From NCBI GenBank assembly GCA_018061005.1, contig JAGOVA010000011.1, forward strand, positions 1-58,447: a stretch of DNA of 58,447 nt. The letters are read 5' to 3'. Each line of letters begins with the position of its first letter. The first letter of the stretch is position 1. This DNA comes from Sterolibacterium sp. (GTDB taxonomy: Bacteria > Pseudomonadota > Gammaproteobacteria > Burkholderiales > Rhodocyclaceae). A program made the position numbers and the translations under genes. Of this stretch, positions 12,169 through 23,505 are shown piece after piece. The notes under the pieces are model-generated. The model saw only the letters and a list, made by a program, of their open reading frames with translations. It was not told where the DNA came from and made no database searches.

Positions 12169-12187
12169 TTGCCGGGTTTTTTTCATC

Positions 12188-12230
12188 AACACAGGCCGCA
12201 CCATTGATTTGGTGCGGCCTGTGTTGTTTT
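12188..12230 (+). terminator. Rho-independent terminator after sucCD
   Basis: A 16-bp perfect stem (AACACAGGCCGCACCA with its complement, 6-base loop TTGATT) is followed by GTTTTT, starting 20 bases after the sucD stop. It separates sucCD from the signalling cluster. Confidence 0.92.
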
Positions 12231-12376
12231 TACGACTATAAAATATTTGACTGTCTTGAGCTTTAGCTGCAAGAATCTAAGCCATACTGCTGTTTTGAGA
12301 GGGTTTTCATCCGATGCAGCCTGGCTGTTGGCGGTAATCATGACGGATGATACAAGTGCGAGGACAGGCTGACACG

Positions 12377-14980
12377 ATGGGCAAGGCGAAATTCTGGAAA
12401 ACCGACTGGTTTCTGGGGCTGATCATCAGCCTGCTCGTATTTTTGTTCGGTAGTGGCGACCTGTTGCAGAGTCTGGAACGCAAGGCGTACGACGTGGGGG
12501 TGAGTTTCACCACACGCACCCCCAGTGACAAGCTGGCGGTCATCGCCATCGACAAGCGCAGTATCGACAACATCGGCCGCTGGCCGTGGTCGCGTGATGT
12601 GCTGGCCGACATGATCGACCACCTGAGTGCGGCGGGTGCCAAGGTAATTGCGGCAACGGTGTTTTATTCAGAGCCGCAACGCGATGCCGGGCTGATCTAT
12701 ATCCAGCAGCTGAAAACGCTCTATACACAGCTTCCTCCTGCAACCGTTAACGCGCTGGCCGTTGCGGATGCGACGGCTCCCCTGGTGCGCATGGGCACGC
12801 TGCTGGATGATGCCGAACGCAAGCTGGATACCGATCGTCGGCTGGCGGAAAGTGTGGCGCGGGCGGGCAATGTGGCTTTGCCTTTCCTGTTTCATCTGGA
12901 GCGCTTGTCAGGCCGTCCGGACAAGGCTTTGCCGGATTATCTGCAAAAACAGGCTATTCCCGTTCCGCTGGCGGCGGCCGACACGGAGCGTGTGCTGTGG
13001 GGGGCGAATCTCGATGCTTCGGTCATCGCGCCACTGGGTGAGGCGGCGGCCGCCATCGGGCAGCTCAACATGACCCCGGATGTTGATGGTGGTATCCGCA
13101 GTGAGCCCTTGATGGTGGCCTATGGCGACCGGCTCTATCCGTCACTTTCGTTGTTGGTGGCGGCGCGCAGCTTGAATCTGAGCGCGGCAGATATCCAGGT
13201 GCAGCCAGGCAGCCATGTCCGGCTGGGCAATCTGCAGATCGGTACCGACGAGGTGGGGCGCATGCTGCCCTTTTTCTACAAGAGCACGGCGCCGGGCGAT
13301 GAAGGCAGTGCGTTTGTGCAGGACTCTTTCTTCGATGTCTGGAGTGGCAAGATTCCGTATGCCAAATTCCGTGACAAGATCGTGCTGATCGGCCCCACGG
13401 CGGCGGGGGTGGGTAGTGTGCATCCGACGCCGGTTTCACCCGCGATGCCGGATGTGCTGGTGCTGTCCCATGCGGTTTCCAGTATTTTGTCTGGTCATTT
13501 TTTTGTTGCGCCGAGCTGGGCATTCTGGGTGGAGAAAGCGGCTTTTCTGCTGGTGGCACTCTATCTCATCATTTTGCTGCCGCGTCTGAGTGCGGGGCGC
13601 GGTGCGGTGCTTACCGGCGTCTGGCTGGCCGCGTTGCTGGGCACGCATTTCGTGCTGATGACCACGCAACTGCTCTGGTTGCAGTTGATGCTGCCCGCCA
13701 CCCTGCTGTTGCTGGGGCATTTGTTGCTGACGACCAAGCGTTTCCTGGTGACTGAACGGGGCAAGGAAAAATCCGATCTGGAGTCTTCCGAATCGAACCG
13801 TATGCTGGCGCTGGCCTTTCAGGGGCAGGGGCAGCTCGACATGGCCTTCGACAAGTTTCGCAAGTGCGTGATGGATCAGGGGCTGATGGAAAATCTGTAC
13901 AATCTTGCCCTCGATTTCGAGCGTAAACGCCAGTTCAACAAGGCTGAGGCGGTGTTTCGTTACATGGCGGATTTCGATCCGAAATTCCGCGATCTGGAAC
14001 AGCGTGTGCAGCGGGCCAAACAGCTTTCGGAAACGGTGATTCTGGGCGGCAGTAGTGGTGGATTGGGGGGAGTGGGCGGTGCGAGCCTGCTCGATGCTGA
14101 TGGCAATGTCGAGAAGCCGATGCTGGGGCGTTATCAGATCGAGAAGGAACTGGGCAAGGGCGCGATGGGGGTGGTGTATCTCGGTCGCGATCCGAAAATC
14201 AACCGCGTGGTGGCGATCAAGACCATGGCTTTGGCGCAGGAATTCGAAGGCGACGAGCTGGTCGAGGTGAAGGCGCGCTTCTTCCGCGAAGCTGAAACCG
14301 CCGGGCGGCTCAATCATCAGCACATCGTCACCATGTATGACGCGGGTGAGGAGCACGATCTGGCCTATATCGCCATGGAGTTTCTCAAAGGTAAGGATCT
14401 GGTCGGTTACATCAAGCCCGGCCAGCTGCTGCCGCCGCTACGCGCCATGAGCATTGTGGCGCGGGTGGCCGATGCGCTGGCGTATGCCCATGAAAACCAT
14501 GTGGTGCATCGGGATGTGAAGCCGGCCAACATCATGTATGAGCCGGAGGCAGATATCGTTAAGGTCACCGATTTCGGCATCGCCCGCATCACCGATTCGA
14601 GCAAGACCAAGACCGGTATGGTGCTGGGCACGCCCAGCTACATGTCGCCTGAGCAACTTTCCGGCAAGAAGATCGATGGTCGCTCAGACCTGTTTTCGCT
14701 GGGGGTCACGCTGTATCAGTTGCTGTGTGGTCGTCTGCCGTTTGAGGGCGATTCGATGGCGCAGCTGATGTTTCGCATTGCCAACGAGGCGCATCCGGAT
14801 ATCCGTCTCTATATTCGGGGTGCGCCGCCGCCCCTGGTTGCCATCATTGACAAGGCATTGTGCAAGGATATTGAACAACGTTATCAGACCGGCGCAGACA
14901 TGGCGCAGGATTTGCGGCGTTGTATCGAACAGTTGAAGGCTGCCCACGCAGCCAAACAGGCGAAGAAAGAAGGCGCATGA
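12377..14980 (+). CDS. CHASE2 receptor Ser/Thr protein kinase
   Basis: 867 aa from the ATG at 12377 (MGKAKFWK); an ATG 30 bases upstream is possible. One N-terminal membrane helix is followed by a periplasmic CHASE2 domain (about 40-330, with the family's VIAIDKRSIDNIGRWPWSRDV segment). Three closely packed membrane helices come next (about 380-450), then a TPR-like helical stretch (about 475-545) and a eukaryotic-type kinase (about 585-850). Kinase motifs are intact: GKGAMG loop, Lys615 (VAIK), HRDVKPAN (Asp713) and DFG. It would phosphorylate Ser/Thr residues in response to an unknown periplasmic signal. The next genes encode its probable opposing phosphatase and phosphothreonine reader. 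Confidence 0.95.
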   Translation: MGKAKFWKTDWFLGLIISLLVFLFGSGDLLQSLERKAYDVGVSFTTRTPSDKLAVIAIDKRSIDNIGRWPWSRDVLADMIDHLSAAGAKVIAATVFYSEPQRDAGLIYIQQLKTLYTQLPPATVNALAVADATAPLVRMGTLLDDAERKLDTDRRLAESVARAGNVALPFLFHLERLSGRPDKALPDYLQKQAIPVPLAAADTERVLWGANLDASVIAPLGEAAAAIGQLNMTPDVDGGIRSEPLMVAYGDRLYPSLSLLVAARSLNLSAADIQVQPGSHVRLGNLQIGTDEVGRMLPFFYKSTAPGDEGSAFVQDSFFDVWSGKIPYAKFRDKIVLIGPTAAGVGSVHPTPVSPAMPDVLVLSHAVSSILSGHFFVAPSWAFWVEKAAFLLVALYLIILLPRLSAGRGAVLTGVWLAALLGTHFVLMTTQLLWLQLMLPATLLLLGHLLLTTKRFLVTERGKEKSDLESSESNRMLALAFQGQGQLDMAFDKFRKCVMDQGLMENLYNLALDFERKRQFNKAEAVFRYMADFDPKFRDLEQRVQRAKQLSETVILGGSSGGLGGVGGASLLDADGNVEKPMLGRYQIEKELGKGAMGVVYLGRDPKINRVVAIKTMALAQEFEGDELVEVKARFFREAETAGRLNHQHIVTMYDAGEEHDLAYIAMEFLKGKDLVGYIKPGQLLPPLRAMSIVARVADALAYAHENHVVHRDVKPANIMYEPEADIVKVTDFGIARITDSSKTKTGMVLGTPSYMSPEQLSGKKIDGRSDLFSLGVTLYQLLCGRLPFEGDSMAQLMFRIANEAHPDIRLYIRGAPPPLVAIIDKALCKDIEQRYQTGADMAQDLRRCIEQLKAAHAAKQAKKEGA

Positions 14981-15825
14981 ATCTGGGCGGAGCACTGGAG
15001 ATCGTGGGGCGTACCGACACGGGGCGGGTGCGCTCGCATAATGAAGATGCGATTCACTGTGATGGCGCACGCGGTCTGGTGATTCTGGCGGACGGGATGG
15101 GCGGGCATAACGCGGGTGAAGTCGCCAGCGGCATGTTGACGACCCTGTTGGCCAGCGAACTGGGGAACCGGCTCGATGCCGCTCGTGGTGCGTGGCGCAG
15201 TCAGTGGTTTACCCGCGCCGGAGAAGATGAGACCCGCCAGATGCTGGCGCATGAAATCATCCGTGCCAATACCGCCATATATCAGGCGGCGCAAAGGCAG
15301 CCGCAGTATGCGGGGATGGGCACAACGCTGGTGATGGCGGTGTTTTTCGATAATCTGATGCTGGCGGCACATGCGGGAGACTCTCGTTTGTATCGTCTGC
15401 GTGCGGGGAATTTCGAGCAGATCACCCGCGATCACTCGTTGTTGCAGGAGCAGATTGACAGCGGCCTGCTGTCGGTCGCGGAGGCGCGGCTGTCGCAGAA
15501 CCGGAATCTGGTGACGCGTGCTGTGGGGGTAGAGCCGAGCGTTGAGGCGGAGGTTCATGGCTATGCGGTGTTGCCCGGGGATGTCTATCTGCTGTGCTCG
15601 GACGGGCTGAATGACATGATCGAAGATGGCGAAATCGCCACCCTATTGCGGTCGTCAGGGGGGGCACTTGATCTCGAGGCGGCTGCGACGCAGTTGGTGA
15701 ATCAGGCCAACGACCATGGCGGCCGCGATAATGTTTCCGTCATTCTGGTGCGGATCAACAATGAATTCCCGGCGACGGGGCGTGACGCAGGCTGGCTGCA
15801 ACGTTTCATGGCCTGGCTCAAATAA
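14977..15825 (+). CDS. PP2C-type Ser/Thr phosphatase
   Basis: 282 aa from the ATG at 14977, which overlaps the kinase stop (ATGA). The metal-binding motifs of PP2C phosphatases are complete: RSHNEDA, LADGMGGHNAGE, AHAGDSRLYRLR, CSDGLNDM and GGRDNVSVILV. It is soluble with no membrane segment. Kinase and phosphatase coupling in this order is standard for bacterial Hanks-type systems, so it most likely reverses the kinase's phosphorylation, including autophosphorylation. Confidence 0.96.
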   Translation: MNLGGALEIVGRTDTGRVRSHNEDAIHCDGARGLVILADGMGGHNAGEVASGMLTTLLASELGNRLDAARGAWRSQWFTRAGEDETRQMLAHEIIRANTAIYQAAQRQPQYAGMGTTLVMAVFFDNLMLAAHAGDSRLYRLRAGNFEQITRDHSLLQEQIDSGLLSVAEARLSQNRNLVTRAVGVEPSVEAEVHGYAVLPGDVYLLCSDGLNDMIEDGEIATLLRSSGGALDLEAAATQLVNQANDHGGRDNVSVILVRINNEFPATGRDAGWLQRFMAWLK

Positions 15826-15865
15826 CCTGCAATGCAGGGTTTATCGACGAAATGGAATGATCAGG

Positions 15866-16579
15866 ATGGCAAAAATCATACTCAGCATGGAAGGCATGGT
15901 GCTCAAGGATATTGCGCTGGACAAGGAGCGGCTGACGATCGGTCGCCGTCCGCACAACGATATCCAGATCGATAATCTGGCCATCAGTGGTGAACACGCG
16001 GTCATCGTGTGTGGGCACAACGAAGTGCTGCTTGAAGACCTGAACAGTACGAATGGCACCCAGGTCAATGGTCATCCCATCAGAAAACATCTGCTCAAGA
16101 ATGGCGATGTGATTGAACTGGGTAAATACCGGCTCAAGTTTTTTGATGAAGTGCCCTTCCCGCAGGCGCGTAAAGAGGCGTTCGAACGTACTCAGGTCGT
16201 GCGTCCGGGGAGTGTGGATTTGCCGCCCGCTATTGCGTCGTCGCATGCGGATACGCGTGACCACCTGCAGACCTCGACCGGCTGGCAGCAGGGTGAACCT
16301 GCCGCTGATGGATTGCCGCGTGCGGTGATCCAGATCCTGTCTGGTGCGAATGCAGGCAAGGAACTGGCGCTGACCAAGAGCCTCACTACCCTGGGCAAGC
16401 CGGGGGTGCAGGTGGCGGTCATTGCGCGGCGGCCGCAGGGGTACTTCATGACACATGTCGAAGGCAACAGCTTTCCCAGTGTCAATGGGCAGCCGCTCGA
16501 TGTGCAGGCGCATCCGTTGAGCGATCATGACATCATCGAACTGGGTGGCATCAAGATGGAGTTTTTCTTCAAAGCTTGA
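15866..16579 (+). CDS. FHA-domain protein with second degenerate FHA-like half
   Basis: 237 aa from the ATG at 15866 (MAKIILSMEG); an ATG at 15857 is an alternative. Residues 5-90 are a clear FHA domain with GRRPHNDI, ISGEHA and LNSTNGTQVNG, which reads phosphothreonine on partner proteins. Residues 150-237 look like a second, degenerate FHA fold (TTLGKPGVQ...SFPSVNGQPL) that lacks the canonical binding arginine. The protein probably links the kinase to downstream partners, perhaps the cyclase or the ATPase encoded next. It lies 40 bases after the phosphatase gene. Confidence 0.92.
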   Translation: MAKIILSMEGMVLKDIALDKERLTIGRRPHNDIQIDNLAISGEHAVIVCGHNEVLLEDLNSTNGTQVNGHPIRKHLLKNGDVIELGKYRLKFFDEVPFPQARKEAFERTQVVRPGSVDLPPAIASSHADTRDHLQTSTGWQQGEPAADGLPRAVIQILSGANAGKELALTKSLTTLGKPGVQVAVIARRPQGYFMTHVEGNSFPSVNGQPLDVQAHPLSDHDIIELGGIKMEFFFKA

Positions 16580-16616
16580 GGCGCAAGGCGGGTCGGGATA
16601 GTCGGAGGATGAACAT

Positions 16617-18863
16617 ATGGCACGAGAAAGCGATCTGAAAAAGAACCTGTTGCGTTACGGCGTCGGTTTGCTGTTGATGCTGACCGTGCTCGGCCACGCG
16701 CTGCATTTCTACTCGCTGGAGATCGTCAGTCGTCTGGATGCGATTCTGTATGACAGTAAGCTGCGGATGACCATGCCGCGCAGCATAGATGATCGTGTGG
16801 TGATCCTCGATATCGACGAGAAATCGTTGGCCGAAATCGGCCGCTGGCCGTGGAATCGTGCCCAGATGGCTGCCTTGATGGGGCAGTTGTTCGAGCATTA
16901 CCAGATCCGCCTGGTGGGGTTTGACGTGGTTTTTGCAGAGCCGGACGACAGCTCGGGGATGGGGCAGCTCGATGCCTTGTCGCGCAAGGAACTGCGGGCA
17001 GATCGGGAGTTTCTTTCCGCCTACCGGAGCCTGCGGCCAGGGCTGGATTACGATGCACGTTTTGCCCAGGCCTTGCGTGGTCGACCGGTAATTTTGGGTT
17101 ATTACCTGTCCAACCGGGCAGACGATCCGGGGAGTGGTGCCCTGCCCACGCCGGTGCTTGCGGCCGGGCAGCTTGAGCAGACGGGTAGTGGCGGTGTGAG
17201 TCTGACCCACTGGTCTTCCTTTGGCGGCAATCTGCCGCTATTCCAGAAAAATGCAGCCGGGGCGGGGCATTTCAACCCGATCGTCGATTTTGATGGCATC
17301 GTGCGGCGTGTGCCGATGCTGGCCGAGTATCACGGGAACTATTATGAATCCCTGTCGCTGGCCATGGTGCGCGCCTATCTGGGCTTTCCTGAAGTGGTTC
17401 CTGGTTTTCCCGCGACGGGCGCAGGTGATCTGGAATGGCTGGATATGGCAGCGCCGTTGGGCATACTACGCATCCCGGTCGATGAGAGTGCCGCCGCGTT
17501 GATTCCTTATCGCGGTTATGAGGGCAGCTTTCCCTACTTTTCAATGGCCGATGTACTGAAGGGGCGTGTTCCGCTGGAGCGTCTGCAGGGGCGGATTGCC
17601 CTGGTGGGCACCAGCGCGCCTGGGCTCAAGGATCAGCGAGCCACCCCGGTGGGTGAGGCTTATTCCGGGGTGGAAATGCACGCCAACCTGATTGCCGGCA
17701 TGCTCGATGGACAACTCAAACTCAAGCCCTCCTACGCATTGGCGGTGGATTTCCTGCAGTTGCTGGTGGCCGGGCTGCTGATGATCTTCCTGTTGCCGCG
17801 CTTGAGCCCGATGCGCGCCAGTTTGCTGGCACTGTTGATTTTTCTGTTGCTGGGCGGCATCAATCTGGCGGCCTGGCAGTATGCCAATTTTGTACTACCG
17901 ATTGCGGCGGCACTGACCTTGGTGGTGTCCTTGTTCGCGCTCAACATGTCCTGGGGATATTTTGTCGAATCACGCAGCAAACGGCAGATGACGGGCTTGT
18001 TTGGTCAGTATCTGCCGCCCGAACTGGTCGAGGAGATGAGTCGCGATCCGGAAAATTACAGCATGGCCGGGCGCAAGGCCGAGCTGACGGTATTGTTCTC
18101 CGATGTGCGCGGATTCACCACCATTTCCGAAGGACTGGGGCCGGACGAACTGGCCAATCTGATGAACGAATATCTGGGGGCGATGACGCAGATCATCCGT
18201 CATCGGCGTGGCACACTCGATAAATATATCGGTGATGCGATCATGGCCTTCTGGGGTGCGCCGGTCGAGGATGCCGACCACGCAAAACATGCCGTGCTGT
18301 CAGCCATAGAAATGCAGCAGGCACTCCCGGCGCTCAACCGGGTGCTCGCCCAGAAGGGCTGGCCGGAGCTCAAGATCGGGGTGGGGGTGAATACGGGTGT
18401 CATGACCGTGGGCGACATGGGCTCGCCGGTGCGTCAGTCGTATACCGTGATGGGCGATGCGGTGAATCTGGGCTCACGCTTGGAGGGCATTACCAAACAG
18501 TATGGTGTCGGTATTCTGGTGGGCGAGCATACCTGGGCGCAACTGCAGGGCGTGATGGCTTTCCGTGAGATCGACCGGGTGCGTGTCAAGGGCAAGGCCG
18601 AGCCGGTGGGCATTTATGAGCCCTTGTGTGAGCTGACCCAGGCACCGGCGGAAATGCTGGCGGAACTCGCCCGCTGGGATCAGGCGTTGACGGATTATCG
18701 TGCCCAGCACTGGCATGAGGCGGAACAGGGGCTGCAGGCGTTGTCGGCCTTGACGACGCCACCGCGTTACATCTACACGTTGTATCTTGAGCGGATTGCC
18801 CATCTGCGTGAGCATCCCCCGGGCGAGACGTGGGACGGTGTGACGATTTTTGAAACGAAATGA
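16617..18863 (+). CDS. CHASE2 receptor class III adenylate/guanylate cyclase
   Basis: 748 aa. The layout is an N-terminal membrane helix, a periplasmic CHASE2 domain (about 40-340, again with DIDEKSLAEIGRWPW), three membrane helices (about 375-445) and a class III cyclase domain (about 485-690). Metal-binding Asp496 (FSDVRGF) and Asp540 (YIGDAIM), and the transition-state pair Asn617/Arg621 (GDAVNLGSR), are present. The Lys before YIGD and the Thr before VMGD favour ATP as substrate, so cAMP is the likely product. GGAGG precedes the start. The CHASE2-plus-three-helix module closely parallels that of the kinase, so the two may sense related signals. Confidence 0.94.
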   Translation: MARESDLKKNLLRYGVGLLLMLTVLGHALHFYSLEIVSRLDAILYDSKLRMTMPRSIDDRVVILDIDEKSLAEIGRWPWNRAQMAALMGQLFEHYQIRLVGFDVVFAEPDDSSGMGQLDALSRKELRADREFLSAYRSLRPGLDYDARFAQALRGRPVILGYYLSNRADDPGSGALPTPVLAAGQLEQTGSGGVSLTHWSSFGGNLPLFQKNAAGAGHFNPIVDFDGIVRRVPMLAEYHGNYYESLSLAMVRAYLGFPEVVPGFPATGAGDLEWLDMAAPLGILRIPVDESAAALIPYRGYEGSFPYFSMADVLKGRVPLERLQGRIALVGTSAPGLKDQRATPVGEAYSGVEMHANLIAGMLDGQLKLKPSYALAVDFLQLLVAGLLMIFLLPRLSPMRASLLALLIFLLLGGINLAAWQYANFVLPIAAALTLVVSLFALNMSWGYFVESRSKRQMTGLFGQYLPPELVEEMSRDPENYSMAGRKAELTVLFSDVRGFTTISEGLGPDELANLMNEYLGAMTQIIRHRRGTLDKYIGDAIMAFWGAPVEDADHAKHAVLSAIEMQQALPALNRVLAQKGWPELKIGVGVNTGVMTVGDMGSPVRQSYTVMGDAVNLGSRLEGITKQYGVGILVGEHTWAQLQGVMAFREIDRVRVKGKAEPVGIYEPLCELTQAPAEMLAELARWDQALTDYRAQHWHEAEQGLQALSALTTPPRYIYTLYLERIAHLREHPPGETWDGVTIFETK

Positions 18864-18932
18864 GGCTCGAGTCCGCGCCCTGCATCAGGGTATGATGGCG
18901 CGGTTAGAGATGACAGGACAGGATAGGAGCAC

Positions 18933-21305
18933 ATGGTGAGCACGGCACAAGCATCCGCTCAGGAAAACCCCGGCGCTGGCGATGTCAATTCGCGGCTGGA
19001 GTTTTTCAAGAATCTTCAGGCAGTCACCAACAAGATTCATGCGACGAACAATATCGACGAGATCATGCTCGAGCTGTCGCAGGAAATCTGTAGTCTGTTC
19101 AATGCGGATCGTCTGACCATTTATTCGGTCAGTGAAGACAAGACGGCGATTGTTTCCAAGGTCAAGACGGGGCTTAATTCTTTCCGTGATCTCAAGCTGC
19201 CGATCACCGATCAGAGTGTCGCGGGCTATGTGGCGTTGTCGCGCAAGATCATCAATCTGCGCGATGTGTATGACGATGTCGAGCTGAAGTCGCATCACCC
19301 CAGTCTGCGGTTCTTGCAGGAAGTCGACAAGCGCACGGGCTATCGCACCAAAGAGATGCTGGTCGGGCCGATCGTGACGGCGACTGACGAGATTGCCGGT
19401 GTGGTGCAGGTCATCAATAACAAGCTGGGCCAGCCTTTTTCGACCATCATCGAAGAGGGGCTCAAGGGGCTGTGCGAAACCCTGGCCATTGCCTTCACCC
19501 AGCGTTCCAAGCCCTCGGCGGCAAAAACCAAGTACGATCAACTGGTGGCCGATGCGGTGATTTCCGCTCAGGAAATGGAGCTGGCCATCCGTTCGGCACG
19601 GCGCAAAAACGTCGATATCGAGGAAGTGCTGATTGATGAATTCCAGGTCAAGCTGCCCGCGATAGGCACGGCACTGGGCAAGTTTTTTAACGTGCCTTAT
19701 GAGCCGTACAAGCATGACCGGGTCAAGCCATTCGACCTGCTGAAAAACCTGCGTCGCGAGTACCTCGAACAGAATCAATGGTTGCCGCTCGAAGAGACCA
19801 ACGAGGGCATCCTTATCATGACGATGGATCCCGAGCAGATCAAAAGCTCGCGCATCGTCAATAATATCTTCACCCGCAGCAAGCTGGCCTATCGTGTCAC
19901 CACCATTCGTGAGTTCAAACAGAGCCTCGATTTCCTGTTCGGCGCACAGGCTGTGGAAGTCGATAATGGCTCGGTCGGCGACCTGCTTTCAGCGATGGAA
20001 GGCGATGCGGATGACAGCCCCGATACCTCGGCAACCGATGCTTCGGCCGCTTCCGACAATGAACTCGTCAAACTGGTCAATCGGGTGATTACCGATGCCT
20101 ATCAGCAAGGGGTTTCGGATATCCATATCGAACCGTCACCCGGCAAGGAAAAAACGCTGATCCGCTTTCGCAAGGACGGCTCGCTGGTCAAGTACATTGA
20201 AGTCCCGGCCAGCTATCGCAGCGCGATGGTGGCGCGGCTCAAGATCATGTGTGATCTTGATATTTCCGAACGACGCAGGCCGCAGGATGGCAAGATCAAG
20301 TTCAAGAAATTCGGCCCCCTCGATATCGAACTGCGGGTGGCGACCATCCCTTCGGTGGGCGGCGAAGACGTGGTCATGCGGATCCTGGCAGCGGGTGAAC
20401 CGATTCCGCTCGACAAGCTGGGGGTTCTGCCGGCCAATCTGGAGCGGCTCAAGGGCGCGATTTCAAAACCCTACGGCCTGTTCTTCGTCTGCGGCCCGAC
20501 CGGATCCGGTAAAACCACCACGCTGCACTCGGTGCTCAAGTATCTGAATAATGTGGATACCAAAATCTGGACAGCCGAAGATCCGGTGGAAATCACCCAG
20601 AAAGGGCTGCGCCAGGTACAGATCAACAAGAAGGCAGGTCTTGATTTCCCGACCATCATGAAGGCCTTTTTGCGTGCCGACCCGGACATCATCATGGTCG
20701 GTGAAATGCGCGATGCTGAAACGACGGGCATAGGCATTGAAGCGTCGCTCACCGGTCACCTGGTGTTTGCCACGCTGCACACCAACAGCGCGCCGGAGTC
20801 CATCATCCGCCTGCTCGATATGGGGATGGATCCTTTCAACTTCTCGGATGCGCTGCTGGGCATTCTCGCCCAGCGTCTGGCCAAGCGGCTGTGCAAGTGC
20901 AAGGAGGCTTATACGCCGGATGATGCTGAAATGCAGTTGTTTATCAAGGAGTACTGTGGCGAGCTGATCCATACCGAGGCTTTCAAGAAGGATGCCAAGG
21001 CGGCACAACAGAAAATTTACGATCGCTGGCTGAAAGAATATGCCAAAGATGGCAAGTTCACGCTCTACCATGCGAAGGGTTGTGCGGAGTGCAACGACAG
21101 CGGTTACAAGGGGCGGCTGGGTCTGCATGAGCTGATGCTGGGCAGTGACCGGGTGAAAAAGCTGATTCAGGAACACGCCCGGGTCGCCGATCTGCTCGCC
21201 GTGGCACTTGAAGAGGACATGCTGACCTTGAAGATGGATGGTATGGAAAAGGTGTTGCAAGGCCTGACCGACCTGAAGATCGTGCGCTCGGTGTGTATCA
21301 AGTAA
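18933..21305 (+). CDS. GAF-fused GspE/PilB-type secretion ATPase
   Basis: 790 aa, longer than typical GspE or PilB (about 500-570). Residues 25-190 form a GAF domain. Residues 200-340 resemble the T2SSE N-terminal domain, and 380-790 form the hexameric ATPase with Walker A GPTGSGKT (521-528) and the Asp-box ADPDIIMVGEMRDAET. A zinc site is made by C654xC656 and C717xxC720, as in GspE/PilB. Such ATPases drive type II secretion or type IV pili, but no pilin, platform or secretin genes are near. With its sensory GAF domain it is an orphan ATPase that may respond to a cyclic nucleotide made by the upstream cyclase; that is inference. Confidence 0.92.
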   Translation: MVSTAQASAQENPGAGDVNSRLEFFKNLQAVTNKIHATNNIDEIMLELSQEICSLFNADRLTIYSVSEDKTAIVSKVKTGLNSFRDLKLPITDQSVAGYVALSRKIINLRDVYDDVELKSHHPSLRFLQEVDKRTGYRTKEMLVGPIVTATDEIAGVVQVINNKLGQPFSTIIEEGLKGLCETLAIAFTQRSKPSAAKTKYDQLVADAVISAQEMELAIRSARRKNVDIEEVLIDEFQVKLPAIGTALGKFFNVPYEPYKHDRVKPFDLLKNLRREYLEQNQWLPLEETNEGILIMTMDPEQIKSSRIVNNIFTRSKLAYRVTTIREFKQSLDFLFGAQAVEVDNGSVGDLLSAMEGDADDSPDTSATDASAASDNELVKLVNRVITDAYQQGVSDIHIEPSPGKEKTLIRFRKDGSLVKYIEVPASYRSAMVARLKIMCDLDISERRRPQDGKIKFKKFGPLDIELRVATIPSVGGEDVVMRILAAGEPIPLDKLGVLPANLERLKGAISKPYGLFFVCGPTGSGKTTTLHSVLKYLNNVDTKIWTAEDPVEITQKGLRQVQINKKAGLDFPTIMKAFLRADPDIIMVGEMRDAETTGIGIEASLTGHLVFATLHTNSAPESIIRLLDMGMDPFNFSDALLGILAQRLAKRLCKCKEAYTPDDAEMQLFIKEYCGELIHTEAFKKDAKAAQQKIYDRWLKEYAKDGKFTLYHAKGCAECNDSGYKGRLGLHELMLGSDRVKKLIQEHARVADLLAVALEEDMLTLKMDGMEKVLQGLTDLKIVRSVCIK

Positions 21306-21332
21306 TTCGGGCGTGATGGGCGGGAGATAATC

Positions 21333-22940
21333 ATGGAAGGTTTTGATCTGCAGTCCACTATCTTTCAGCGGCTCGAACAGCTGAATGCGATTGGTGCGGC
21401 GTTGTCCAGCGAGCGTGACATCGACTGCTTGCTGGAAAAGATACTGGTTGCCGCCAAAGGCATCACCCATGCCGATGGTGGCACGCTGTATCTGGTGGCT
21501 GAAGACGGGCAGGGGTTGCGCTTTGCCATCATGCACAACGACACCTTGCACAGTGCGCTGGGCGGCACTTCCGGGCACACGATCGATTTGCCGAACCTGC
21601 CTTATACGGATGAACAGGGGCAACCGAACAACTCGATGGTCGCTGTTTATGCGGCGATTCATGCGGAAACCGTCAACATCGCGGATGCCTATTCCGCGCA
21701 GGGTTTCGACTTTTCCGGCACGCGCAAATTCGATCAGCGCACCGGCTACCGTTCGCGCTCCTTCCTGACAGTGCCGATGCGGAATCATGAAAACACCGTG
21801 ATCGGCGTGCTGCAGTTGATCAACGCCCAGTCGCCGGAAAGCGGTGAAGTCGTGACCTTTTCGGCGGCGGATCAGCGTCTGGTCGAGTCGCTTTCGTCGC
21901 AGGCGGCCATTGCCCTGACCAACCGGCAGTTGATCCAGCAGCTTGAAACCCTGTTCGAATCCTTTATTGGCCTGATCAACCTGGCCATTGATGAAAAATC
22001 ACCCTACACTCGTGGCCACTGTGAGCGCGTGCCGGTGCTGACCATGATGCTGGCCGAAGCCGCCAACCGCACGGCGCGCGGTGCGCTGGTCGGCTTTCAT
22101 ATGAGCGACCGCGATCTCTATGAACTGAAAATCGCCGGTCTGCTGCATGATTGCGGCAAGGTAACGACCCCCGTGCATGTGGTCGACAAGGCCACCAAGC
22201 TCCAGACCCTTTACGATCGTATCCATACCCTTGATACACGTTTTGAAGTGCTGCTGCGTGATGTCGAAATCGACATGCTGCGTGCCGGCGTGACGGAAAT
22301 TACCGGGGAATACGCGCGTCGCCTTGAACAAATCCGGTCGGATCGCGAGTTTCTGCGTCACGTCAACATAGGCGACGAAGCCATGAGCGAGGCGGACCAG
22401 CAGCGGGTGCGTGAGATCGGGACGGGCTACCGCTGGAAAAATGAACATGATGAAATGGTCGATTTTCTGGATGCCAATGAAATCGAGAATCTCACCATTC
22501 GTGCCGGCACGCTGACGGCCAGCGAGCGTGAGGTGATCAATCATCATATTGTTGCCACCATCCGCATGCTCGAAGCCTTGCCCTGGCCACGTCATCTGAG
22601 CCGGGTTCCCGAATATGCCGGGGGGCATCATGAACGCATGGACGGCAAGGGATATCCCAAAGGGCTCAAACGTGAAGATATGTCCGTGCAGGCGCGGATC
22701 ATGGGGATTGCGGATATTTTTGAAGCGTTAACCGCCAAGGATCGCCCCTACAAACAGGGCAAGACGCTTTCGGACTCCCTGTTCATTCTGGGCAAGTTCA
22801 AGGAAAACGGTCATATTGACCCGGATTTGTTTGATGTGTTCGTTCGTGAGCGGGTCTATTTGCGCTATGCCGAAAAGTTTCTCGACCCCCAGCAAATTGA
22901 CGTGGTGGATGAGCAGCGGATCCCGGGCTATGTTGCCTGA
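21333..22940 (+). CDS. GAF-HD-GYP cyclic-di-GMP phosphodiesterase
   Basis: 535 aa, soluble. A GAF domain (about 25-195) closely resembles in its pattern that of the upstream ATPase (both contain KxDxRTGYRxx). The HD-GYP domain follows: HD pair at His272-Asp273 (LLHDCGK), GGHHERMDGKGYP with G440-Y441-P442, and later ARIMGIADIFEALTAKDRPY. An insertion of roughly 100 residues separates the HD and GYP halves. The motifs needed for c-di-GMP or pGpG hydrolysis are intact. It is 27 bases after the ATPase gene, in the same transcription unit, and is the last gene of the cluster. Confidence 0.94.
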   Translation: MEGFDLQSTIFQRLEQLNAIGAALSSERDIDCLLEKILVAAKGITHADGGTLYLVAEDGQGLRFAIMHNDTLHSALGGTSGHTIDLPNLPYTDEQGQPNNSMVAVYAAIHAETVNIADAYSAQGFDFSGTRKFDQRTGYRSRSFLTVPMRNHENTVIGVLQLINAQSPESGEVVTFSAADQRLVESLSSQAAIALTNRQLIQQLETLFESFIGLINLAIDEKSPYTRGHCERVPVLTMMLAEAANRTARGALVGFHMSDRDLYELKIAGLLHDCGKVTTPVHVVDKATKLQTLYDRIHTLDTRFEVLLRDVEIDMLRAGVTEITGEYARRLEQIRSDREFLRHVNIGDEAMSEADQQRVREIGTGYRWKNEHDEMVDFLDANEIENLTIRAGTLTASEREVINHHIVATIRMLEALPWPRHLSRVPEYAGGHHERMDGKGYPKGLKREDMSVQARIMGIADIFEALTAKDRPYKQGKTLSDSLFILGKFKENGHIDPDLFDVFVRERVYLRYAEKFLDPQQIDVVDEQRIPGYVA

Positions 22941-23167: not shown

Positions 23168-23395
23168 ATGGCCGATACACTGTTCTGTTACCACTGCCGG
23201 ACGCATCATCCGAAAGAAGAGATGCGCCAGATTGAAACCAAAGGCGGCAAACGCTGGCGCTGCATCAAGAGCATACAAGCCACCAAACAAGGGCGCGAAG
23301 CACGCGAGGCGTTTGGACGGCAAATGTCGGAAAACAATCGTGCCGAAGCAGAAAGCAAGGCGCGACTGGTGCTTAACGCAGCCAAACAGCTTTGA
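23168..23395 (+). CDS. Small zinc-ribbon-like protein
   Basis: 75 aa (MADTLFCYHCRTHHPKEEM). CYHC plus a later cysteine (RWRCIKS) and histidines suggest a small zinc finger. The rest is a charged helix (REAREAFGRQMSENNRAEAESKAR). I do not recognise a named family; similar small proteins occur as hypotheticals in betaproteobacteria. A longer in-frame start adds hydrophobic sequence from the leader and is less likely. A strong terminator follows, so it is probably a single-gene unit. Confidence 0.7.
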   Translation: MADTLFCYHCRTHHPKEEMRQIETKGGKRWRCIKSIQATKQGREAREAFGRQMSENNRAEAESKARLVLNAAKQL

Positions 23396-23470: not shown

Positions 23471-23505
23471 ACAGGGCATCGAATCATCGATGCCCTGTCT
23501 TTTTT
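23471..23505 (+). terminator. Rho-independent terminator between zinc-ribbon gene and aceB
   Basis: A 12-bp perfect stem (ACAGGGCATCGA, loop ATCA) is followed by C and six Ts. It ends the + strand zinc-ribbon transcript. On the - strand the hairpin is followed by TTAATTTTG, so it may also slow aceB transcription. Confidence 0.9.

Follow-up and report, generated by a model that had tools for sequence, protein, structure and literature searches.

A GAF-bearing type IV pilus-class ATPase encoded with receptor-kinase and receptor-cyclase genes in Sterolibacterium: a candidate extension motor

Introduction

What is a motor ATPase of the GspE/PilB class doing among genes for a receptor Ser/Thr kinase, a protein phosphatase, an FHA reader, a nucleotide cyclase and an HD-GYP enzyme? 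These six genes form a cluster at positions 12377-22940 of contig JAGOVA010000011.1 of Sterolibacterium sp., a stretch of 58,447 nt that we call the window; its own genome is labelled G000, and the genus comprises G000-G003. The cluster had been proposed in a first-pass annotation of the DNA, and it is borne out: all six open reading frames (ORFs) are intact on the + strand, and the domains assigned to the six proteins agree with Pfam throughout.

12377..14980, + strand: CHASE2, presumed membrane helices, TPR-like linker and Ser/Thr kinase (Pfam CHASE2 6.8e-53, Pkinase 1.8e-54)
14977..15825, + strand: PP2C-type Ser/Thr phosphatase (NF033484 Stp1, 240.1 bits)
15857..16579, + strand: FHA protein with a canonical FHA domain and a second, degenerate FHA half (Pfam FHA 2.9e-24)
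16617..18863, + strand: CHASE2, presumed membrane helices and class III nucleotide cyclase (Pfam CHASE2 7.4e-57, Guanylate_cyc 2.7e-21)
18933..21305, + strand: GAF, weak MshEN and GspE/PilB-class ATPase, the proposed motor (Pfam GAF 4.9e-8, MshEN 1.3e-5, T2SSE 8.8e-111)
21333..22940, + strand: GAF and HD-GYP, a proposed cyclic di-GMP (c-di-GMP) phosphodiesterase (Pfam HD_5 9.8e-42, GAF 1.9e-13)

The same annotation had described the ATPase as an orphan motor. Its linkage to pilin genes, the pattern of PilB absence and the retention of PilC make it better read as an extension motor of type IV pili (T4P), the retractable filaments used for surface grip and DNA uptake. The genomic evidence leads us to think it rather probable that the ATPase is a T4P extension motor with a cyclic-nucleotide GAF domain, run by the kinase/phosphatase/FHA and cyclic AMP (cAMP) module and able to replace PilB.

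Results

The ATPase belongs to a clade of its own

The ATPase shows the features of the broad PilB/GspE class, with a T2SSE domain, Walker A, an acidic Walker B, a His box and metal-binding cysteines; GPTGSGKTTT, GEMRD, TLHTNS and four cysteines are invariant in 38 sequences. It falls short of each family model within that class, scoring 473.1 bits against the PilB model TIGR02538 (cut-off 675.65), 422.7 against the GspE model TIGR02533 (cut-off 630.25) and 381.7 against the TfpB model NF053534 (cut-off 850), and so belongs to none of the three as these models define them. In a tree built by a quick method, with three long branches flagged and MshE and GspE rows picked by context and score, the GAF-bearing ATPases form their own clade with a support of 98 (99 for the betaproteobacterial members), separate from PilB (99), TfpB (100) and MshE (100). 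One sequence labelled GspE, L034, joins the base of this clade on a long branch, outside the other GspE rows. The nearest kin are ATPases with other N-termini, in a group without support (46). Among these kin, L153-L161 and L138 carry different N-termini and a clear MshEN domain; six such kin were scanned, and DUF4388 was matched in two and DUF6982 in one, weakly.

The surrounding module recurs in related bacteria

Two samples of relatives were compared. A contig scan with the ATPase gave 80 loci, the best 80 of at least 589 confirmed relatives, a set biased to close relatives and with many loci ending at contig edges; a genome set comprised 61 relatives, 43 of them with the ATPase and the window's own included, in which genes were tallied by script. 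Azospira sp. I13, Sulfurisoma sediminicola BSN1, Methyloversatilis thermotolerans 3t and Chitinimonas viridis are among the hosts of the ATPase in the contig scan. All 80 loci carry the ATPase by construction, 72 the HD-GYP gene, 68 the cyclase, 61 the FHA gene, 56 the PP2C gene and 44 the kinase, together with two genes absent from the window, one for a phosphodiesterase-like protein (65) and one for a cyclic-nucleotide-binding/rhodanese protein (30). Next to the ATPase of the 43 genomes, the FHA gene occurs in 38, the phosphodiesterase-like gene in 37, PP2C in 31, HD-GYP in 30, the cyclase in 27, the kinase in 23 and the cyclic-nucleotide-binding/rhodanese gene in 18; at four of the five without an adjoining FHA gene the locus stops at a contig edge. 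The gene-order search suggested by the first-pass annotation thus found the order kinase-PP2C-FHA-cyclase-ATPase-HD-GYP repeatedly, both among the 80 loci and in 21/43 genomes, with all eight genes in 14/43. Since the order recurs this widely it is not due to chance, and the outcome named there as decisive against a system, that the genes stand together only in this genome, is excluded; a cluster private to the window's genome was rejected on these grounds.

The module also comes apart. Ten of the 80 loci, mostly of Oxalobacteraceae type, are split, with the cyclase and HD-GYP genes running away from the ATPase, and some relatives keep a reduced form that consists of (PP2C)-FHA-phosphodiesterase-ATPase only. 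Further afield, in an even draw of 369 genomes of the class, close orthologs of the ATPase are present in G000 and G051, two of the four genomes of the same order, and 28 other genomes have a more distant relative (479-626 bits). Parts of the module appear to travel beyond the order, because a cyclase gene lies near the GAF-ATPase in L148 (715-5278), and HD-GYP and phosphodiesterase-like genes lie near it in L150 (1361-10529).

Pilin genes lie downstream of the ATPase

When the neighbours of the 80 loci were clustered, the commonest unassigned family was a type IV major pilin, found at 41 loci. A stricter signature scan placed a pilin within 9 kb downstream at 36/80 loci and upstream at 0/80, with 40 of the downstream pilin genes on the same strand as the ATPase and three on the opposite strand. 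The genome set shows the same asymmetry, with pilins downstream in 16 of the 43 genomes and upstream in none by the strict scan (17 by a looser one). At 22 of the 60 loci with enough flank the pilin lies no more than 3 kb from the ATPase stop. Among 12 hand-picked genomes PF00114 was matched in 10, in six of which, including the genus-mate G002, the match lies at most 5 kb from the ATPase.

Pilin neighbours could be a legacy of old synteny at sucCD, and the ATPase could drive a type II secretion system (T2SS) or an MSHA-like machine. This would suit the scores of 423 bits with the GspE model and 473 with the PilB model, both below cut-off, and the 26 of 43 genomes with no pilin in the available flank. 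We nevertheless consider it unlikely: the ATPase lies outside the MshE clade and apart from the pair of GspE rows that form a group (the third, L034, being the long branch at the clade base); the T2SS-like and MSHA-like ATPases of G002, named by eye, adjoin platform genes of their own; and the pilin is one-sided, at 36 loci against 0 of 80.

In PilM-positive genomes the ATPase is present where PilB is absent

Strong PilM, defined by E below 1e-100, is present in 51 of the 61 relatives, and canonical PilB is above cut-off in 36, the lowest at 701 bits. A first PilB search used E<=1e-200, a threshold at which a lower-scoring PilB could escape notice; a second search at 1e-110 therefore covered the 20 PilM-positive, PilB-less genomes and two others, leaving aside five further PilB-less genomes (G024, G037 and G053-G055). 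The top score in the 20 genomes at this threshold was 602 bits, below the PilB cut-off. Among the PilM-positive genomes the GAF-ATPase is found in 20/20 without PilB as opposed to 21/31 with it (Fisher one-sided p 0.0035), and none of the 51 is without both. The platform protein PilC is retained as an ortholog in 19 of the 20; 18 of these genomes have no pilB adjoining pilC, and G038 has the C-terminal part of pilB only. In that genome the truncated remnant (L218:1028-1480) stands directly before pilC, and the GAF-ATPase module is on another contig.

A second extension motor, TfpB, complicates this picture. It is encoded in 44 of the 61 relatives (42 above cut-off and two slightly under). TfpB, described in Acinetobacter, occurs widely across this order and its class, with 71 of 274 class-level genomes carrying it. 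TfpB may be the true substitute for PilB; the GAF-ATPase would then serve as a priming factor or accessory motor and tune a pilus driven by PilB or TfpB. Beside its frequency here, including 16 of the 20 PilB-less PilM-positive genomes, precedent speaks for this: in A. baylyi the two motors differ in their roles, and P. fluorescens A506 carries TfpB but no PilB (PMC8213720). TfpB does not track PilB loss, though, since it is found in 16/20 genomes without PilB and 25/31 with it (p 0.67), and the GAF-ATPase is carried by all four PilM-positive genomes in which both PilB and TfpB are missing (G002, G005, G051 and G052). G051 is assembled as one contig and G002 as four; G005 is 83% complete. We judge this alternative improbable as a whole, if less so than a secretion function; that TfpB explains all PilB loss is unlikely for 4/20 of the PilB-less genomes and possible for the other 16.

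Beyond its GAF-ATPase, G051 encodes a single other ATPase past E 1e-110 with the PilB model, among platform-like genes of its own as judged by eye. This divergent GspE-like ATPase (L190, G051:C1:588102-589751) has a GspF-like gene on one side and two smaller genes on the other that look pilus- or T2SS-platform-like by eye; together they make up an unusual filament cluster, in a genome that is a single contig.

Observations that weigh against a PilB-replacing motor

Several results count against the T4P-motor reading and temper our confidence in it. Across all 61 genomes the association of the ATPase with PilB absence has p 0.14; ten PilM-positive genomes have PilB and no ATPase; and G016 and G030 have ATPase and PilB with no more than marginal PilM matches. 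PilM served as a proxy for the whole machine in a search that left out PilN-PilQ, and the co-occurrence tests ignore phylogeny among genomes that share ancestry. About 11 changes are needed to account for the absence of PilB on the PilC tree, but few of its branches are firm; only two independent pairs fall on starred ones, and the sign test on them (p 1) has no power. The possible substitute TfpB is present, as above, in 16 of the 20 PilB-less PilM-positive genomes. No pilin was found in the available flank of 44/80 loci by the signature scan; G007, G021 and G033 keep PP2C-FHA-phosphodiesterase at a locus from which the ATPase is missing; and outside the order just two of 18 distant loci have a strong match to another module gene.

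A further difficulty lies in the window's own genome. It is 93% complete and gave no PF00114 pilin, the window has no pilin-like ORF, and the genome does have pilB-pilC, on a suspect contig. That contig, G000:C57 (locus L289, 1-8786; 8.8 kb), carries pilB-pilC-pilD. Its PilC groups with those of G043/G045, not with the PilC of the three other genomes of the genus, and in tetranucleotide composition it is a poor fit to the window (r 0.62, as against 0.79 for the pilM contig, 0.76 for the tfpB contig and 0.76-0.86 for the window's own pieces, a self-comparison that flatters the last figure). From its PilC branch and composition, C57 may be misbinned; if so, the organism would lack PilB, as the other three members of the genus do.

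The GAF domain of the ATPase resembles the cyclic-nucleotide-binding type

Cyclic-nucleotide-type GAF domains had been proposed for this cluster, and both profile and fold back the proposal. A profile of the ATPase GAF domain (27 sequences) found as its best PDB match 1ykd, the tandem GAF of an adenylate cyclase (6.1e-36), followed by PDE10A, PDE5 and PDE2A and then the HD-GYP protein 4mcw. Foldseek matched an AlphaFold model of the domain (pLDDT 81) to 4mcw, 1ykd, PDE2A, PDE5 and the Lcd1 GAF with cAMP. The 1ykd cyclase is CyaB2, and by profile and fold alike the domain is nearest to cyclic-nucleotide-binding GAF domains of the PDE/CyaB2 type; the NKFDE signature is, by eye, only partly present. 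The operon partners, a cyclase here and in relatives also phosphodiesterase-like and cyclic-nucleotide-binding proteins, were counted in favour of this reading, and the ligand is probably a cyclic nucleotide, cAMP. The likeness noted earlier between the GAF domains of the ATPase and the HD-GYP protein is real, at 26% over 194 aa (E=7e-11, a single comparison), and the pair is homologous. The MshEN domain of the ATPase scores 25.5 bits against a Pfam cut-off of 23.1, and the residues of its two 24-residue c-di-GMP-binding motifs look degenerate by eye in the alignment. Being barely above cut-off and degenerate in appearance, it makes c-di-GMP sensing by the motor uncertain.

The cyclase, the HD-GYP enzyme and two genes missing from the window

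The cyclase motifs DKY.GD and TVMGD.VN are conserved in 67 sequences, as expected for a class III enzyme, and its substrate is presumably ATP according to residue rules. In the HD-GYP protein, whose top PDB match is the HD-GYP structure 4mcw, HDCGK and HHERMDGKGYP are conserved in 70 sequences. Relatives encode further components in the interval between cyclase and ATPase. One is a metallo-beta-lactamase-fold, phosphodiesterase-like protein that scores 56.4 bits against PF02112, the model for class II cAMP phosphodiesterases (cut-off 23.7), with a best stretch covering only 82-144 of 340; its top PDB match is 4ojv, 3',5'-cyclic-nucleotide phosphodiesterase 1 (9.4e-9), and RNase Z models give sub-cut-off matches as well. 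Because the PF02112 match is partial and RNase Z models match too, we infer its cyclic-nucleotide substrate with caution. The other is the cyclic-nucleotide-binding/rhodanese protein, encoded in this interval at 30/80 loci.

Genome-wide, the four genomes of the window's genus gave just weak matches to either protein, and the locus of G002 and G003 consists of FHA-ATPase-HD-GYP, without cyclase, kinase and PP2C. The six-gene set of the first-pass annotation therefore stands as a set, and it is incomplete as a description of the system: because relatives carry the two extra genes, the window is best seen as holding a shortened version of a larger circuit that combines kinase and cyclic-nucleotide signalling.

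The kinase, the phosphatase and the FHA protein

A weak TPR match sits between CHASE2 and Pkinase in the receptor kinase, and VAIK, HRD and DFG as well as the linker motif ETV.LGG are kept across 44 aligned sequences. The phosphatase passes the Stp1/PrpC model NF033484 (240.1 bits, cut-off 230), with intact DGMGG/GDSR/DN motifs that are conserved among orthologs. The two halves of the FHA protein align with each other (hhalign 93%, E 4e-7), and its linker carries a TM.L motif kept in relatives that reads TQVV in the window. Conserved candidate phosphorylation sites lie in both linkers, that of the kinase (ETV.LGG) and that of the FHA protein.

FHA proteins of the GarA/OdhI type suggest another function for this part of the cluster, a metabolic switch in which kinase and FHA protein control 2-oxoglutarate/succinate metabolism, which would explain the sucCD neighbourhood. 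The FHA gene does lie downstream of sucCD and its product matches the OdhI model, but at 57.9 bits it is far under the cut-off of 200 and outside the GarA/OdhI family so defined; its profile score is also under the FhaB cut-off. Between sucD and the module stands a strong terminator-like hairpin, the gene set occurs together with a pilus-class ATPase and in many cases with pilins, and at split loci with the ATPase, cyclase and HD-GYP genes there is no sucCD in the available stretch. We regard a metabolic switch as very improbable.

Boundaries of the transcript

The short gaps claimed for the cluster were confirmed, from a 4-bp overlap up to 69 bp: kinase and phosphatase overlap by 4 bp, and the spacings that follow are 31 bp to the FHA gene (with its start taken as the ATG at 15857), 37 bp to the cyclase, 69 bp to the ATPase and 27 bp to the HD-GYP gene. 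It is plausible that the six genes share a single transcript. By eye, sucCD precedes the cluster and a malate-synthase-like gene follows on the opposite strand. The signals found around it are these:

12187..12226, + strand: intrinsic-terminator-like hairpin closing the sucC-sucD unit (17-pair stem, then a T run)
12247..12276, + strand: weak promoter-like site (9 of 12, consensus scan) between the sucD terminator and the kinase gene
23471..23498, + strand: terminator-like hairpin 3' of the cluster, past a small ORF (12-pair stem and T run)

These hairpins, with 17 and 12 pairs, rank above all others in the region, which have at most seven. The weak site is the only promoter-like one in the gap between sucD and the kinase, and in the consensus scan such sites are no more frequent in the region than in shuffles. 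Between the HD-GYP gene and the second hairpin lies the small ORF (23168-23395), which encodes some 75 aa, including a CxxC pair; the transcript may end with this gene. Upstream of the kinase, a TerC-family-like gene (by eye) appeared in 21/80 loci on neighbour clustering.

Discussion

The combination of domains, gene order and pilus linkage enables us to propose a model for the module. The two CHASE2 receptors would read a periplasmic signal. One, the receptor-cyclase, would raise the level of a cyclic nucleotide, probably cAMP, which the phosphodiesterase-like protein would lower where present; the other, the receptor kinase, would phosphorylate proteins, with PP2C reversing this and the double-FHA protein reading the phosphothreonines. 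It is plausible that the cyclic nucleotide binds the N-terminal GAF domain of the motor and gates its ATPase activity, and that the motor, which can take the place of PilB, then extends pili via PilC from the pilin whose gene often lies downstream. Responding to that nucleotide too, the GAF-HD-GYP protein would form a second output and reduce c-di-GMP.

A broader reading, which we put forward only tentatively and hold somewhat less probable than its opposite, is that these ATPases are a widespread betaproteobacterial class of T4P motor with its own cyclic-nucleotide sensor, in which cAMP acts at the motor and not on transcription, and which has repeatedly displaced PilB. Taken with that same degree of reserve, the reading would include the adjacent receptor-kinase/phosphatase/FHA and receptor-cyclase/phosphodiesterase circuits and a sister GAF-HD-GYP protein leading to c-di-GMP. 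If it holds, many Burkholderiales-type bacteria, some of them PilB-less, extend their pili by a motor that is undescribed and is itself the sensor of a second messenger, and a direct allosteric cAMP route is added to the control of T4P. Ser/Thr phosphorylation, cAMP and c-di-GMP would then meet in a single operon that also encodes the machine under their control, and the possible piliation of genomes with pilM and pilC and without pilB would be explained.

The module is real and conserved, and apparently undescribed as such; in the open-licence literature nothing was recognisable as a description of it or of a GAF-bearing pilus motor. A survey of cyanobacterial kinases (PMC2176072) reportedly names CHASE2 and FHA. 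As predicted from the sequence, the parts of the module are a T4P motor and known signalling proteins, and the unusual feature would be their direct coupling.

With GarA/OdhI/FhaB and PknB/Stp the module shares a kinase, a PP2C phosphatase and an FHA reader side by side, and differs in its two FHA halves, its CHASE2 receptor kinase and its sub-cut-off scores. With PilB (TIGR02538) the ATPase shares the T2SSE core with Walker, His-box and tetracysteine motifs, the MshEN-like region and a pilin gene often nearby, whereas it belongs to a separate clade, carries an N-terminal GAF of cyclic-nucleotide type, scores below the cut-off, and has a kinase, FHA and cyclase in its operon rather than pilCD. 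TfpB of A. baylyi is likewise a second, phylogenetically distinct class of extension motor that occurs with or without PilB (PMC8213720), and the term GAF does not occur in the text of that paper; the window ATPase falls in a separate clade, at 382 bits against a cut-off of 850.

The CyaB adenylate cyclase of Pseudomonas has a CHASE2 architecture like that of the receptor-cyclase. In the sections of PMC11656802 consulted, CyaB and cAMP are linked to T4P via Vfr and Pil-Chp, and c-di-GMP is the second messenger that binds the N-terminal part of the motor through the MshEN domain of MshE/PilB. None of the CyaB-Vfr, MshEN and TfpB accounts, within the parts of PMC11656802 and PMC8213720 that were available, puts a cyclic-nucleotide GAF on the motor. 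In the CyaB-Vfr system cAMP acts on transcription, whereas the window encodes a predicted cyclic-nucleotide sensor fused to the motor itself; in MshEN systems the messenger is c-di-GMP, whereas here MshEN is weak, the apparent sensor is the GAF domain and the messenger would be a cyclic mononucleotide.

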